Under the pieces are notes generated by a model. That model did not search any database. It was not told where the DNA came from and saw nothing but the letters and a program-made list of their open reading frames with translations. From Necropsobacter rosorum (GTDB lineage: Bacteria; Pseudomonadota; Gammaproteobacteria; Enterobacterales; Pasteurellaceae), in the NCBI GenBank assembly GCA_000751835.1, contig CCMQ01000006.1, forward strand, positions 1-64,000: 64,000 nt of DNA. Direction: 5' to 3'. Shown piece by piece: positions 43,536 to 64,000 of this stretch. How positions within the stretch are numbered: the stretch's first letter is position 1; every line of letters starts with the position of its first letter. The position numbers and the translations under genes are program-made.

Positions 43536-43934
43536 ATGAAAAAATCACTATTAGCAGCATTAGTATTAGGTGCGACATTAACAGTAACCGGTTGTTTCGA
43601 CAAGAAAGATGACGCTTCTCAGCAGGTTGAACAAGCGAAAGAAAGCGTATCCGAAGCTAAAGAAGCCGTTTCTCAGGCTGCGGCAGATGTTAAAGACGCG
43701 ACTGTAGCGAAAGCGGAAGAAGCTAAAGATGCGGTGATGGACAAAGCTGCCGAAATGAAAGATGCAATGTCGGATAAAGCCTCTGAAGTTAAAGACGCAA
43801 TGTCAGATAAAGCGGAAGAAGTGAAAGACAGCGCACAAGAAATGAAAGATGCCGCCGCAGAAAAAGCGGAAGAAGTTAAAGACGCTGCTGACGAAAAAGC
43901 AGCTGAAGTTAAAGATGCAGTGAAATCCGAATAA
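43536..43934 (+). CDS. Lipoprotein with 11-residue amphipathic helical repeats
   Basis: A 132-residue protein. The lipoprotein signal is MKKSLLAALVLGATLTVTGC, with Cys20 as lipidation site. The mature part is almost entirely Ala, Lys, Glu and Asp in 11-residue units of the pattern DKAxEVKDAMS, repeated about seven times, like LEA or apolipoprotein helices. I use the ATG at 43536 (AGGAG 5 bases upstream) rather than the one at 43533. It probably forms a long amphipathic helix in the periplasm, at a membrane or bound to the cell wall. Stress protection is a guess from the repeat type. Confidence 0.8.
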   Translation: MKKSLLAALVLGATLTVTGCFDKKDDASQQVEQAKESVSEAKEAVSQAAADVKDATVAKAEEAKDAVMDKAAEMKDAMSDKASEVKDAMSDKAEEVKDSAQEMKDAAAEKAEEVKDAADEKAAEVKDAVKSE

Positions 43935-56459: not shown

Positions 56460-59400
56460 TTATGAAATATCTCCTCCTACCCCTTTAAATTTCTCGACAA
56501 ATGCTGCGATTTTTTGAAAAATGCTTTGTTTCTTAGTAAGATACTGTGGATTCAGCGGACTCATTTTAGGTAGTGCCTCATTCAAATCCGTGCCGTTTTC
56601 GCTGGCATATTCACGTTTTAACGAAACATTAATATAACGTTTAGCCGCTTCTGTTTTTAAATTTTCCGAAGCAATAAGTTCATTAGCTTCTTTCTGTTGC
56701 TCGGCTTGAGCAAATTTAAAAAACGCTTCAATGATACTTGTCTTATCGGCAATAGCATCTAAATCTGTTTGATGAATAAAATCGATAATTAAACTTTCTT
56801 TGGCACGATTTCCCAAACTTGAGCGGATAATTGAACGAATTTCTTCAACCAATGACGCTTTATCTTTGGTTTTTTTATTGTGTTCAAAAATTAGCTCTAA
56901 AATATAATCCAGATTGATTTCTTGAGATTTCAATAGATCCACCTCAAAAATCACATCATCCCAATCAATGGTTGATTTTCCCTTTTCTTCGACATCTTTT
57001 TGCCGACGCAGCCAATCACGAATATCATTATAAGTAGAACGGTAGTTTTGAATATCCCGTTCGCTAGGCACATTAATTTTTTGCATTTCGACAATAGCTT
57101 CATCGCTAAGATAATATTTTTCTTTAAATGCCTGAAGTGATTGTTCATCGCTTGTATCAACGGATTGAAATGCTTGTAAAGCGGAAAATTCATCATAATT
57201 TTGTAAAATGTTTTCAACGCGTAGATATTCACCGAATAATTTAACAAAGTCTTTTTTATCTTTTTCTGTCTCAATTTCAGTCGGATCAGGAAAGCGATCA
57301 CTGAGTTCGGTAATGACGTCTAAATAGCCGCGGCGATCGGTATAGCCTTCCATATATTCTTGATAGCTTTTTTCCAGTACCACATTACGCGTATTGGCGT
57401 TTCCAAAAAGCGTAATGGCATCAATGGTATTTTGCTCCAAGTCGCGGAAAGTCACGATATTGCCAAAAGTTTTGGTAGCATTATAAATTCGATTGGTACG
57501 GGAAAAGGCTTGAATTAACCCGTGATAACGTAGGTTTTTATCGACAAACAAGGTGTTTAATTTCGGCGCATCAAACCCGGTTAAAAACATGCCGACAACA
57601 ATAAGCAGGTCAATTTCTTTATTTTTGACCCGTTTTGCTAAATCTCGATAGTAGTTTTGGAAGGATTTTCCATCCACATCATAGTTGGTTGCAAAATACT
57701 TATTGTAGTCATCAATGGCCGATTTTAAGAATTCTTTAGCGCTCGAATTCATGGCTTCCACTTCAAAACTTTCATCGGCAATATCGCCTACTGCGTCTTG
57801 TTCTTCATTGGCGGCAAAAGAAAAGATGGTGGCAATTTTAAGCGGATTTTCTACCGCACTTTGTTGCTTTTTAAATGCTTCATAATAAAACTTTGCCGCC
57901 TCTACGCTACTCACCGCAAACATCGCATTAAAACCTTGATTACCGGCGTTGAAACGATGTGTCTTTTGTTTGAAATTGTTCAAGATATATTGAGTGATTT
58001 CTTCAATGCGTTTGGGCTGTAGAAAAGCCGCTTTTTGCTCAAGTGCGGTCAGTTTTTCAAGATTTTTTTCCGTTTCGATGGTTTTAAATTGCGGACGAAC
58101 ATCGTTGTAATCCACTTTAAATTTGAGTACTTTTTCATCACGAATGGCATCGGTGATAATGTAGGAATGTAGTTGAATACCAAAAACACTCTCTGTGGTT
58201 TCAGCACCTAATGCGTTGCCTTTACGGATGAGTTTTCCATCAACAATATCATCGCCAAAAATTGGCGTGCCGGTAAAACCAAATTGGTAGAATTTTTTAA
58301 ATTTTTTCTTTAAGTTTTTTTGCGCTTCACCGAATTGCGAACGATGGCATTCATCAAAAATAAAGACTACCTGTTTATCATAAATCGGTAACTTATCTTC
58401 TGATTTCATTAGGTTATTGAGTTTTTGAATGGTGGTAACAATAATTTTGTTATCCTCTTTTTCAATGTTGCGTTTTAACCCCGCCGTACTTTCCGAGCCA
58501 TTGACGCTGTCAGGTGAAAAGCGCTGATATTCTTTTATGGTTTGATAGTCCAGATCTTTACGATCCACCACAAAAAACACTTTATCAATAAAGTCTAGCC
58601 CCGTTGCAAGGCGCGCTGCTTTAAAACTGGTTAAAGTTTTGCCCGAACCTGTGGTGTGCCAAATATAGCCACCGCTTTTTTGATTACTCCAGTTTTTAGA
58701 TTGATAAGAACTGTTAATTTTCCACAAAATCCGTTCGGTTGCGGCGATTTGATAAGGGCGCATAATCAAAAGTGTATCGGTGGTATCAAACACGCAATAA
58801 TTGATCAGAATATTTAATAGGGTATTTTTTTGGAAAAATGTCGCCGTAAAATCCTTTAAATCACGAATAGCGGTATTTTTTGCCGTTGCCCAATTCATTG
58901 TGAAATCATAGCTATTTTTATCGCGTTTGGTGGTATTGGCAAAATAGCGGGTATCTGTACCGTTGGAAATAACAAAAATTTGAATATATTTAAAAAGAGA
59001 ATTGTCTTTATTAAAACTTTCTTTGCTATAGCGGTGAATTTGGTTAAAGGCTTCCCGAATTGCCACACCGCGTTTTTTTAATTCAATATGCACAAGCGGC
59101 AAGCCATTCACCAACACCGTTACATCATAGCGATTATCATAATTTCCGGTCTGCTCAAATTGATTAATCACTTGTAATTTATTATTGGCAATATTTTTCT
59201 TATCCAGCAAATAAATATTTTGAATTCGCCCGTTATCAAAGACAAAATCATAAATATAATCATCATGAATCTTGCGGGTTTTCTCGATGAGGTTATCGGC
59301 AGGTTTATCCAAATATTCTTCTAAAAAGCGCGTCCATTCGGCATTTGAAAAGATAACATGGTTCAGCGTTTGCAACTGATTACGCAGATTTATCAGTAAT

Positions 59401-59579
59401 TTTTCGTGGTTATTGATTTCAGGTAAATACTGATAACCCTGACCTTGTAAATCGCGGATAAATTCACGTTCTAAACTATCTTCCGTCTGATAACCAGCCC
59501 GTGACTCTTCCACGCATTTGGTATATTGATCCAGAACGATAAAATTATTGGATTCGGCGATGGTTTTGTATTGGGTCAT
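56460..59579 (-). CDS. hsdR: Type I restriction enzyme R subunit (type IC, EcoR124I-like)
   Basis: A 1039-residue motor and endonuclease subunit, very close in length and sequence to EcoR124I HsdR (1038). The PD-(D/E)xK nuclease is N-terminal, with the catalytic segment IELKKRG near residue 170. The SF2 translocase has Walker A TTGSGKT, DECH box in [10 protein letters not shown] and the motif [12 protein letters not shown]. It opens [14 protein letters not shown] like the EcoR124I protein. AAGGA precedes the ATG by 6 bases. It is the last gene of the operon. Exact USS cores occur inside, so it is not a brand-new arrival. Confidence 0.97.
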
Positions 59580-59595: not shown

Positions 59596-59796
59596 TTAAT
59601 TCTTTTGCTTTTTCAGATCTTTTTGCCATTTTTCTAAAATTTGTAAATCTTCACTATCAGCCTGTATGCGTTTTTGCTGTTTTCTAGCTTGATCAAATAA
59701 GGCATATTGTTTTTGGGTAACAGTTTCCATTTGTTTCACAGTTCGGGTTCCATTGCCGATGAGCAACGGAAAACCATTAAATTCAATTAAATTAAA
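59596..59796 (-). pseudogene. Cut-off C-terminal part of rhuM
   Basis: Downstream of the rhuM TAA and in the same frame, 66 codons remain open up to a double stop. They begin FNLIEFNGFPLLIGNG and continue with a Lys/Gln-rich helix (QYALFDQARKQQKRIQ). This is the usual tail of RhuM proteins. Only the 5-bp repeat tract with its in-frame TAA separates it from the body, so the intact protein would be about 330 residues. Confidence 0.75.
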
Positions 59797-59809
59797 TTAA
59801 ATTAAATTA
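59785..59809. repeat. Pentanucleotide microsatellite (AATTA)5 in rhuM
   Basis: Five tandem AATTA units (TTTAA-type on the coding strand). They place an in-frame TAA at codon 271 of rhuM. With a single unit the frame would read through NVDNLI to EFNGFP; any copy number of two or more gives the same stop. Confidence 0.92.
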
Positions 59810-60609
59810 TCTACATTATTACGCCAGAAATTTAATGTCAGATCTTGACGGTTTTTAACACGTAATTCGGCACTTTCTAAAAAGATCATCACTAGACGAT
59901 TCAAAGAATCTAATTCATCATGAGTTAAATAGTTTTTAGCGGTAATAATATCACCTTTACGTACAACAGCACCTTTCCAAGAGGTGAGACCCATATTAGG
60001 TAATTCGGCATTGGCACGCTTACAAATGAGTTCCGCGGCGGTTTGTTGTGTAATGGCATAGATCAACTTATTTTGTGTTTCGGCAAAAAACATTTGAGTG
60101 ACTTTATCTGTTTTATCGTAGTCACTGGATAATTTAAATAATTCCCGTACTTTTTGATAAAACCGTAATTCACTGGCTCGAATTTCACGAATTTGTTCCA
60201 GTAATTTATCAAAATGATCAAATCGGCCTTGCGGGTTTTTCAATCGTTCTTTATCTAATAGAAAACCTTTATCTAGATAAGTACGTAATTGGGTATTCGC
60301 CCAGCGACGAAACTGCACACCACGTGGGCTACGCACACGAAAGCCGATTGCCAGAATCATATCAAGGGAATAATGTTTTACTTGATATTGTTTACCATCT
60401 TGGGCAGTTATCAAGTAATCCTTGATAACTGAATTTTTGTCTAGTTCATTGTCTTCTAATATATTTTTTATATGAAAGGCTATATTTTGTACAGAGGTGT
60501 CAAAAAGTTCGGCAAGCTGATTTTGGGTCAACCAAGCCTCATTTTCGACAACTAATAAAGCAACGTGAGATTTGCCGTCATCGGTGTTATAGATGATTAA
60601 ATCATTCAT
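59797..60609 (-). CDS. rhuM: RhuM-family protein, truncated by a repeat-borne stop
   Basis: A 270-residue product of a family of about 330 residues. It shows the RhuM pattern: an N-terminal HTH-like region (WLTQNQLAELFDTSVQNIAFHIKNI), the segment IGFRVRSPRGVQFRRWA and HELIC-type AELICKRANAELPNMGLTSW. The start is the ATG at 60609, 4 bases after the prrC stop. Function is unknown; the family was named in a Salmonella pathogenicity island and is often found in restriction and defence loci. The C-terminal 60-odd residues are cut off by the TTTAA repeat. Confidence 0.85.
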   Translation of the reverse strand: MNDLIIYNTDDGKSHVALLVVENEAWLTQNQLAELFDTSVQNIAFHIKNILEDNELDKNSVIKDYLITAQDGKQYQVKHYSLDMILAIGFRVRSPRGVQFRRWANTQLRTYLDKGFLLDKERLKNPQGRFDHFDKLLEQIREIRASELRFYQKVRELFKLSSDYDKTDKVTQMFFAETQNKLIYAITQQTAAELICKRANAELPNMGLTSWKGAVVRKGDIITAKNYLTHDELDSLNRLVMIFLESAELRVKNRQDLTLNFWRNNVDNLI

Positions 60610-60613
60610 ATTT

Positions 60614-61753
60614 TTACTCTGCTGTATTATCAATTTGTGGTTCTTCAATATTTTCCTCTATATAGAAACCATAATTCTTAATTAGATGTTCAAGTAAATA
60701 TTTAACAATATTTTTTTCAGCATCTGTAGGTTCAGCGATCACCTCATTCGACAAAGTAGAGTGGCTGGTAAAATTAATAATACGAGTGTAATAGTTTTGT
60801 TTGGCATCATCATTAGGCAACAAATTTGACCAACCAGAGTAACCAAGGAAACCAGCTGTTTTTTCATATAAATTGCGCAACAGCATAAAATGGTATTTTT
60901 GTATATCCTTGGCCTCAATATCTTCCAATAGTTTTTTCAGAAAGAGATGATAAGAGAAGCTCTTGTTAGAATCGCCTTTTTTCTCTTTAAGTTCAAATGT
61001 GTTGTCTTCGTTTTTTCTTAAAATAAACCCCGATTTTACTCCCAGCTCATTATATAATACGTTATAAAATAAAGGATTATGTGTTGTGATAACAAATCTA
61101 ATATCTGAGCTTTCCTTGACTAGTGCAGCTAAATCAATAGCCAATTGAATAAGATGATTTTCATCTAACGAACTTACTGGATCATCAATAAAAACATATT
61201 TAAGTTCATCAAATTCATTGGTAGAGCGTTCACTAGGCTCTGGGATATTTAATTCTGCAACAACTTGTTCAATGAACGTATGAAAAATGCTCCAGATAAA
61301 ATTGCTTTCTTCACCCTTTGACAGTTTTATATTTTCTTCGGGCGTATCATCGCCACGCGCAAAACTAAATGTAATTTGATTATTTTCAATATCGAATTTA
61401 GGCATAAGTTTTTCATCACAATAATGATGAAATTTGCTAATTACCTTATCTTCATCACCCTGATCTTTAATCAACCAACTGATGAAAGAATTAGGTTGAA
61501 TCTTTAATTTCAGGTCAGTGTCATTAAGAAGATCATTATCCCAATAGAATAAATCCTCGGTAAATGCATTGAAATAAAGTATTTTTCTTCGTGTTAGCTC
61601 TTCTTCATTGTCATGATTTTCTTTAGGTGCGATAAGATTCTTAAAGGCTTTTGATAAGCGGGTTTTTCCGCTACCATTAAAGGCGTAAATCAGATTAACC
61701 TTTTTCTTGGAATCTCTTAACTGTTCTGCAATTTCATCTAAACTTTTACTCAT
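60614..61753 (-). CDS. prrC: PrrC-like anticodon nuclease (ABC ATPase, latent tRNA-cleaving)
   Basis: A 379-residue protein, close to E. coli PrrC (396) and far shorter than RloC, with no zinc-hook. The N-terminal ABC-type ATPase has Walker A FNGSGKT (residues 25-31), signature LSKGEES, Walker B with D-loop VFIDDPVSSLD and switch His in TTHNP. The C-terminal part has Arg293-x3-Glu297 and His331, matching PrrC's catalytic Arg320, Glu324, His356 in order and near-identical spacing. It sits between hsdS and hsdR exactly as prrC does in EcoprrI. PrrC is held inactive by the restriction complex and released by a phage anti-restriction peptide to cut tRNA-Lys. Confidence 0.85.
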   Translation of the reverse strand: MSKSLDEIAEQLRDSKKKVNLIYAFNGSGKTRLSKAFKNLIAPKENHDNEEELTRRKILYFNAFTEDLFYWDNDLLNDTDLKLKIQPNSFISWLIKDQGDEDKVISKFHHYCDEKLMPKFDIENNQITFSFARGDDTPEENIKLSKGEESNFIWSIFHTFIEQVVAELNIPEPSERSTNEFDELKYVFIDDPVSSLDENHLIQLAIDLAALVKESSDIRFVITTHNPLFYNVLYNELGVKSGFILRKNEDNTFELKEKKGDSNKSFSYHLFLKKLLEDIEAKDIQKYHFMLLRNLYEKTAGFLGYSGWSNLLPNDDAKQNYYTRIINFTSHSTLSNEVIAEPTDAEKNIVKYLLEHLIKNYGFYIEENIEEPQIDNTAE

Positions 61754-61760
61754 ATTATTC

Positions 61761-62930
61761 TCAGCCAGGGAAATTCAATAACAATTCTCTGTAATACTCA
61801 TATCGCTTTTGGCTTTGTTCAATCGCCAAAGGCAAGCCTTCGGTAATGGAATTGGTCAAGGTTTCAAATTTATCTAAAATTGAAGCGATACGGTGCTGCT
61901 CCTTAGGATTAGTAGGAAGCGGAAATCTATATTGTAAAATTGCTGACTTACTACCTCGAGGCATTTTAGCACCTTTAGCGTGTTGCGTATTGTATTCAAA
62001 GAATCGGTCATCGGCTAATATATGATATAGATAACGCGGATTTATCATTGAGCTTGTTGGGTGAATAACTAATACATCTCCGTTTGTTCCACCAGTACAG
62101 TCAGCTTGCCAAATTTTCTTCAAATAAGGTCGTATATTTCCAATTAAAATATCGTTTGGAAGATATTCGGTAAGATTTCCTTCAGTTGGAACGTAATTTG
62201 ATTTTGTTTTCCCTGCTTTATTTTGTAAAAGATTGTCTACACCAACATAGTTATTTTCATTAAGATTTTTAGCTTTAATTCTTGCTTTGGAGTATTCGGA
62301 AATTGAATCCAAACTTTCCCACTCAAACCCAGCCTTCCCAAGTTCTTCTTCGCTCAATAATTTATCACGATAGTATTGATACTGTTTTCTGCGTAGTATA
62401 AGCTCGCTGGTAAGCTCGCTGGTAAGCTCGCTGGTAAGCGCTGTCAATGCGTCCAAAATTCGCACGATTTCGGTTTGGACGGGAAGTGGGGGGATAGGGA
62501 TTAATTTATTTGTATAATTTGAAATCCACTGACGTTTATGATCACCATCTACTTGATTGTTAGGTAATGTATTTAACCAATAGTAAATATATTTTAATAA
62601 AGCTATATTTTCATCTTTTGATGTAATCATTTTCATTGCTGATGACTTGGCTTTAAAATCAAAATCTACCCATTTATTAGCTGTAGTAAAATCATCAAAA
62701 ATAATTACTGGTGATTTAGATGCTAAGTATATGCCTTCTTTTTCATCAGTATATCCCAGAATAAAGGTTTTTCCTGCGGTTAATACAGGTGTAGGAAAGT
62801 GATCACTATATACTGTGGAATTAACGAGATATTTGGTTGGCTGTTCATAATCAGCAATGTTACCCAAAGGTTCCCATTTAACCTCAGCCCCATCCAATAA
62901 TTTATCTAAAAAAGTGCGGTTGTTTTTCAT
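61761..62930 (-). CDS. hsdS: Type I restriction specificity subunit (type IC)
   Basis: A 389-residue DNA-recognition subunit with two target-recognition domains (about residues 10-150 and 200-350), each followed by a conserved helical spacer. The central spacer contains three tandem TSEL units (LTALTSELTSELTSEL), the place where EcoR124I and EcoR124II carry two or three TAEL units that fix the spacer length of the DNA target. The second spacer ends in QKRYEYYRELLL. The start at 62930 uses GAGGGG in the end of hsdM. The first codons overlap an exact USS core (62912-62920). Confidence 0.95.
   Translation of the reverse strand: MKNNRTFLDKLLDGAEVKWEPLGNIADYEQPTKYLVNSTVYSDHFPTPVLTAGKTFILGYTDEKEGIYLASKSPVIIFDDFTTANKWVDFDFKAKSSAMKMITSKDENIALLKYIYYWLNTLPNNQVDGDHKRQWISNYTNKLIPIPPLPVQTEIVRILDALTALTSELTSELTSELILRRKQYQYYRDKLLSEEELGKAGFEWESLDSISEYSKARIKAKNLNENNYVGVDNLLQNKAGKTKSNYVPTEGNLTEYLPNDILIGNIRPYLKKIWQADCTGGTNGDVLVIHPTSSMINPRYLYHILADDRFFEYNTQHAKGAKMPRGSKSAILQYRFPLPTNPKEQHRIASILDKFETLTNSITEGLPLAIEQSQKRYEYYRELLLNFPG
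62400..62435. repeat. Three 12-bp tandem repeats in hsdS (TSEL)
   Basis: AAGCTCGCTGGT occurs three times without change (62400-62411, 62412-62423, 62424-62435) and encodes TSEL on the minus strand; a degenerate fourth unit follows. The unit is divisible by three, so slippage changes protein spacer length but not frame. Confidence 0.97.
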
Positions 62931-62939
62931 GATGTTTTT

Positions 62940-64000
62940 TTACCCCTCAATCTCCGACACAATTTTATCAATCTCGGCACGCAAACGATCAATATTGGCG
63001 ACAGTTTTGCGAATATCTTCGTTTAATTGGTCAATATCAATGAGTTCTCGGGTGTCTTCTGGTTCTACATAAGAACTTACTGAAAGATTGTAATTATTTT
63101 CATCATTGGCGATTTCATCATTGCTAACAGATTTTGCCAAATGGGGCACGTCTTCTTTATCGGCGAACAGTTTTAGGATTTGTTCAATATGTTCGTCTTC
63201 TAGAATGTTGTTATTGGTGGCAGATTTAAACAAACCACTGGCATCAATAAATTGTGTTTGAGTGTCGGTTTTATGTTTGGAAAGCACCAAAATATTCACC
63301 GCAATGCTGGTGCCGAAAAATAAATTCGGCGCTAGGGCAATAACGGTTTCCACAAAATTGTTGTCGACTAAGTATTGACGAATTTTTTGCTCAGCGCCGC
63401 CACGATAAAAAATTCCCGGGAAGGAAACGATAGCCGCTCTGCCTTTTGCCGAAAGATAACTTAATGCGTGCAAAATAAAAGCAAAATCCGCTTTCGATTT
63501 TGGCGCGAGCACGCCCGCCGGCGCAAAACGTTCGTCGTTGATCAGTGTCGGGTCGTCTGAGCCAATCCATTTCACCGAATAAGGCGGGTTAGAAACGATG
63601 GCATCAAAAGGCTTATCATCACCAAACTGTGGTTTAAGCAAGGTGTTGCCTAAGGCAATATCAAACTTGTCGTAGTTAATGTTATGCAAAAACATATTCA
63701 TACGCGCAAGGTTATAGGTGGTGTGATTAATTTCCTGCCCGAAAAAGCCGTCTTCAATAATATGCTCATCAAATTGTTTTTTGGCTTGTAGAAGCAAGGA
63801 TCCCGAACCTGCTGCGGGGTCGTAGATTTTATTTACTTTGTCTTGCCCGTGTAAGGCAAGTTTGGCAATAAGTTTTGAGACGCTTTGTGGGGTAAAAAAT
63901 TCACCGCCTGACTTGCCGGCATTGGCGGCATAATTAGAAATTAAGAATTCGTACGCATCGCCGAATAAATCAATGTGATTGTCTTCAAATTTACCAAAAT
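62940..64000 (-). CDS. hsdM: Type I restriction DNA methyltransferase M subunit (partial)
   Basis: The C-terminal 352 residues of the modification subunit; the 5' end lies beyond the right edge. The frame is open without interruption to position 64000. The SAM-binding motif is [10 protein letters not shown] and the adenine-methylation motif is NPPY in [11 protein letters not shown] helical C-terminal tail ([21 protein letters not shown]) contacts HsdS. The stop is 9 bases before the hsdS ATG, so hsdM begins the operon. Confidence 0.96.

Follow-up and report, generated by a model that had tools for sequence, protein, structure and literature searches.

An intact PrrC-family anticodon nuclease gene in a type IC restriction–modification operon of very probable horizontal origin

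PrrC anticodon nucleases encoded within type IC restriction–modification (R-M) operons have been in print since the 1990s (PMC3014915, PMC3874165). In the E. coli PrrC/EcoprrI system (prrABCD), the nuclease gene follows hsdS, and its product combines an ABC ATPase with an R-x3-E-xn-H domain and carries an Asp, D287, described as the wobble-base contact for tRNA-Lys (PMC3014915). Orthologues in the type IC loci of Haemophilus influenzae and Streptococcus mutans are mentioned in PMC2610378, which gives a PrrC size range of 341–416 aa and reports, as unpublished results, that both are active anticodon nucleases. PrrC170 of Klebsiella quasipneumoniae accompanies a type I R-M system in the order HsdR, HsdS, PrrC, HsdM; it is 35% identical to EcoPrrC and is reported to arrest growth, to target tRNA-Lys and to protect against T1 and T7 (PMC11555353). 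Neighbourhoods that bring together PrrC-like, R-M and RhuM genes were proposed as a multi-level defence in 2013 (Anantharaman et al. 2013, PMC3710099). RloC likewise has an ABC ATPase and the Arg-x3-Glu...His anticodon nuclease triad, and is described as a protein of 658–897 aa with a zinc-hook/coiled-coil insert splitting the ATPase, seldom found in type I loci (PMC2610378).

Here, we analyzed a DNA stretch of 64,000 nucleotides (the window), at whose right end five genes lie on the minus strand in the transcriptional order hsdM-hsdS-prrC-rhuM-hsdR (Table 1). The hsd genes and rhuM were identified with Pfam and NCBIfam (HsdS and RhuM by Pfam only), and hsdM, hsdS and hsdR are each full-length open reading frames (ORFs). 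The prrC ATG is found 7 nt past the hsdS stop codon and the rhuM start 4 nt past that of prrC, and given these short gaps the operon genes are likely co-transcribed. A scan of the operon for internal promoters and terminators revealed no excess of either (16 promoter-like matches against a shuffle mean of 19.5, and 3 terminator-like matches against 4.7). The locus shares with E. coli PrrC/EcoprrI the type IC operon, the position of the nuclease gene after hsdS, the two-domain protein and a D287 counterpart, and differs from it in the insertion of rhuM between prrC and hsdR. The initial annotation had placed the gene between hsdS and hsdR as in E. coli; the intact ORF is indeed present in that position, on the minus strand, but the exact prrABCD order does not hold, as rhuM intervenes before hsdR. 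By description, the locus is also like those of H. influenzae and S. mutans (PMC2610378), resembles that of PrrC170 in pairing PrrC with type I R-M genes while differing from it in gene order (PMC11555353), and contains the gene set noted by Anantharaman et al. (PMC3710099), with rhuM interrupted.

Table 1. Coordinates of the operon genes and of the features within them.
Feature	Position	Strand	Description	Evidence
prrC-type anticodon nuclease gene	60614..61753	(-)	379 aa; ABC ATPase ~1-273, C-terminal nuclease domain ~280-365	PADLOC PrrC; Pfam AAA_13 55 bits; AF2 model
hsdS, type I specificity subunit	61761..62930	(-)	389 aa	Pfam Methylase_S 70.8 bits; PADLOC Specificity_I 302 bits
hsdM	62940..64000	(-)	truncated at window edge; whole gene (L033) codes for 515 aa and extends to 64487 of contig	TIGR00497 456 bits
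rhuM (Pfam Virulence_RhuM)	59596..60609	(-)	270-codon frame starting at ATG, closed by premature in-frame stop (59797-59799); remnant of usual C terminus beyond it	Pfam 308.7 bits; PADLOC PDC-S05; full-length relatives
hsdR, type IC motor/nuclease subunit (EcoR124_C)	56460..59579	(-)	1039 aa	TIGR00348 664 bits; Pfam EcoR124_C 240.8 bits
D261 codon, counterpart of E. coli D287	60971..60973	(-)	D in 78/82 rows	
Catalytic triad codons	60761..60877	(-)	R293 60877-60875, E297 60865-60863, H331 60763-60761	alignment
Tandem repeat of 5-bp unit ATTAA (6.8 copies, 93% match)	59776..59809	(-)	holds early stop of rhuM	TRF
12-bp repeat in hsdS, 3.4 copies, perfect	62399..62439	(-)	coding TSEL x3; TSELTSELTSEL at residue 166	TRF

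The prrC product matched the PADLOC PrrC model PDLC02360 with 456 bits (E 1.9e-137; residues 3–373 on model positions 19–356 of 372), 408 bits ahead of the second-best PADLOC model (48 bits), and its length lies within the published PrrC range. It is 57% identical, over a 395-column alignment, to a 396-aa 'anticodon nuclease' encoded in an hsdM-hsdS-prrC-hsdR operon on an E. coli plasmid. This homologue, whose R320, E324, H356 and D287 agree exactly with the published residue numbering of E. coli PrrC (PMC2610378, PMC3014915), stands in for the E. coli prototype as our alignment reference; compared with it, the window protein is without a 16-residue stretch before the P-loop and has an E-to-H spacing of 33 instead of 31. 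A scan of 84,980 species genomes retrieved at least 591 pattern matches and at least 542 confirmed relatives, the best 80 of which were aligned with the window and E. coli proteins to give 82 rows (the split gene of L060 being represented by its larger piece). In these rows, R293-x3-E297-x33-H331 aligned with R320-E324-H356 and all three residues were kept in 82 of 82, while the ABC-ATPase motif residues G27, K30, T31, K146, G147, E148, D190, D191 and H225 were each conserved in 79–82. The ABC ATPase motifs and the Arg-x3-Glu...His triad of the initial annotation were thereby confirmed, the triad at the very residue numbers given there and with no misalignment against PrrC in the full alignment. 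Judged from its sequence, the gene encodes an intact PrrC-family protein. Relatives were also found in 113 of 72,556 plasmid records, and a tblastn search of 50,697 phage records for PrrC gave no match at E 1e-5.

Among the best 80 of at least 542 relatives, an hsdR ORF was found downstream of prrC in all 80 loci, hsdS in 78 and hsdM in 77; four of the five missing hsdS or hsdM genes fall at contig ends, the exception being hsdS of L126. In the same 80 loci, rhuM was found near prrC in 20 and between prrC and hsdR, as in the window, in 8. Of 140 genomes from the family of the window, 21 matched PrrC strongly and a further 9 weakly, and an hsdR homologue was present in all 20 of the 21 strong loci that were fetched (G111, with the same score as G112, was left out). 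Two of the best 80, L059 and L060, appear to be the same records as the family loci L039 and L050. In three family loci (L038, L042 and L043), PrrC is around 36% identical to that of the window, hsdR comes first and hsdM follows prrC, an order resembling that of PrrC170. Another group (L047, L048, L049, L051, L052 and the split L046) encodes PrrC proteins of 452–556 aa, exceeding the published range, and in L046-L049, L051 and L052 a long insert separates the wobble-contact region from the nuclease triad.

The residues of the wobble-contact region and the tRNA genes of the host bear on the target of the nuclease. The window protein retains both D261 and N263; across the 82 rows (the best 80 of at least 542 relatives, the window and E. 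coli), the D287 column otherwise holds Gly (3 of 82) or Ser (1 of 82). The host genome carries three tandem tRNA-Lys(UUU) genes, whose loop is CTTTTAA, and after them a single tRNA-Lys(CUU) gene; the anticodon loop of E. coli tRNA-Lys is identical to that of the UUU genes. With D261 kept, the anticodon loop conserved and three tRNA-Lys(UUU) genes present, there is a clear prediction that the window PrrC would act on tRNA-Lys(UUU); the tRNA target, given as not known in the initial annotation, can in this way be predicted from D261 and the host loop. This prediction is supported by PrrC170, which has no more than 35% identity with EcoPrrC yet retains tRNA-Lys as its target and protects against both T1 and T7 (PMC11555353).

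A PrrC-like protein whose target has drifted from tRNA-Lys(UUU), or broadened, would be in line with K259, found where E. coli has Y285 beside the D287 motif, and with the anticodon stem of the host, which differs from that of E. coli (a search of the host genome for a 16-nt string of the E. coli anticodon arm gave no exact match, the loop being identical and the stem different). It would also be in line with the loss of the D287 counterpart in close family relatives, which have Ser (L059, L039) or Gly (L060, L040, L041, L050) in its place. However, Lys is the commonest residue at position 259 (31 of 82 rows), the window protein itself has kept the Asp and Asn of the motif, the loop matches that of E. 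coli, and the distant PrrC170 has kept tRNA-Lys as its target; we therefore consider drift or broadening improbable and retain tRNA-Lys(UUU) as the predicted target. Two of the four rows without the wobble-contact Asp come from the family (L059 with Ser, L060 with Gly), and these four rows suggest that PrrC specificity in the window's clade may drift, the proteins with Gly or Ser for Asp287 being candidates for altered specificity. The same replacement, by Gly or Ser, occurs in L128 and L136. We also considered whether tRNA-Lys(CUU) provides a built-in escape from PrrC, and rejected this: among the 140 genomes of the family, exact matches to the CUU pattern were present in 8 of 21 PrrC bearers (PrrC E <= 2.9e-97) and in 39 of 119 others, the 9 weak-match genomes being included in the latter, and there was thus no association. 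The tRNA-Lys(CUU) gene was confirmed with ARAGORN in the host's own genome only.

Compared with the family relatives L039, L040 and L041, prrC has a dN of 0.065-0.10 and a dS of 0.67-0.96 (dN/dS ~0.1), and with dN so far below dS the substitution pattern indicates that the protein is under strong constraint. That the window prrC is a decayed or non-functional remnant might be suspected from the broken frame of the adjacent rhuM and from the split prrC ORFs of the family relatives L046 and L050, but this is highly unlikely in view of its open frame of 379 codons, its intact triad and its dN/dS, as well as the full-length hsdM, hsdS and hsdR ORFs on either side.

In contrast to its intact neighbour prrC, the window rhuM looks broken. 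Its match covers positions 1–214 of the 252 of the Virulence_RhuM profile and so falls short of full length, whereas full-length rhuM genes are found in the relatives L039, L040 and L050. Before the stop, dN is 0.011-0.044 and dS 0.17-1.3; after it, dN is 0.054-0.16 and dS 0.27-1.3, still constrained but more loosely, a pattern in keeping with a gene whose end varies more and which was interrupted recently. Since rhuM is interrupted here and deleted in L041, in both cases beside an intact prrC, it appears to be dispensable while prrC is retained. The rhuM region pattern gave an exact match in 8 of the 140 family genomes, four of which (G018, G067, G074 and G079) have no PrrC match, so that this rhuM also occurs without prrC.

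The repeat expansion at the rhuM stop, seen in a single assembly, could possibly represent a switch or simple loss, or it may be an assembly error. A slip-strand switch at the ATTAA tract would move the operon between two layers (restriction and PrrC) and three layers (with RhuM added), and if real would create a heterogeneous suicide defence within one clone. We regard such a switch as improbable. Among the 8 exact-pattern copies in the family, the expansion is restricted to that of the window, and its absence from the 7 others speaks against a shared switch. No paper mentioning both RhuM and phase variation was found among the literature matches listed.

Structural prediction gave a model (AlphaFold, AF2; mean pLDDT 79.6, pTM 0.71) with a Rad50/SMC-like ATPase head at around residues 1-273 (best row a Rad50 head, Z 12.2, rmsd 3.9 Å over 215 residues) and a helical C-terminal part in which R293 and E297 share one helix and residues 332-338, directly after H331, are of low confidence. 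A Foldseek search retrieved Rad50/SMC heads and, lower down, PtuA chains; no HEPN chain was among the matches listed, at least a fifth of which span residues 1-273 only; this absence is not evidence against a HEPN fold. Searches for a solved structure of a close relative gave no match up to E 10 by sequence and three weak matches by profile (best E 0.043). These PtuA chains and weak PADLOC matches to the PDC-S06 and AriA models might suggest that the protein is not a PrrC but is RloC-like, or an ABC-ATPase defence protein of a generic (PtuA/AriA-like) kind. This reading can be practically discounted, because the PrrC model leads by hundreds of bits, the gene is linked to hsdR, as are the 80 relatives with the best scores (of at least 542), and the protein, which aligns throughout with PrrC proteins of comparable size, is at 379 aa far shorter than RloC as described in PMC2610378.

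The type IC nature of the operon, as annotated initially, is borne out by HsdR, which is of the EcoR124 type, and by a TAEL-like four-residue repeat, here TSEL, between the recognition domains of HsdS. Type IC enzymes are reported to alter the spacing within their recognition sequence through gain or loss of TAEL units, EcoPrrI being said to have three (PMC3874165), and the three TSEL units of the window HsdS are the counterpart of this spacing repeat. With a loose pattern, at least two tandem TAEL-like units were detected in 86 of the 106 hsdS ORFs of the fetched loci, a count that includes fragments and the window's own locus. Family loci in which this pattern found TSEL have two or three copies, a difference predicted to shift recognition spacing. 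Elsewhere in the window, two arrays of 33-bp tandem repeats (~4.5 and ~2.6 copies) occupy 43680-43918, immediately ahead of the tmRNA gene (44051).

The operon is part of an AT-rich insertion (55172-64522) that adjoins mukFEB and is missing from this site in the sister species G100 and G101, where the sequences flanking 55172 and 64522 (the eamA side and the mukB side) stand 82 bp apart. Between 56 and 64 kb, each of the eight 1-kb bins has a GC content of 33-41%, compared with 44% or more in 42 of the 56 preceding bins; other low-GC bins of the window are at 4-10 kb and 50 kb. No close hsdR was found in either sister species; G100 gave none, and the best match in G101 reached E 7.4e-27 with 30% identity. 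A simple empty-site account is ruled out by a nitroreductase gene, which is inside the inserted stretch here and across the muk genes from that site in G100 and G101; its displacement indicates that a local rearrangement accompanied the insertion.

We thus conclude with high confidence that the gene encodes a PrrC-family anticodon nuclease in a horizontally acquired type IC R-M operon. By analogy with the E. coli system, the window PrrC would bind the HsdRMS complex and be kept silent by it, an anti-restriction factor would release it from this silencing, and the freed enzyme would cleave tRNA-Lys and so bring about phage exclusion. The gene would in that case be a back-up defence against phages of a well-described kind. 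As type IC PrrC genes and PrrC/R-M/RhuM sets have already been published, it is a sound but ordinary new copy. What it adds is an intact, testable PrrC, probably from the Pasteurellaceae, a family that includes H. influenzae, with an expected target, tRNA-Lys, fixed by residue and tRNA evidence, together with relatives without the wobble-contact Asp that would make it possible to test how specificity depends on this residue. In other respects, it bears out a defence architecture that had been described before.
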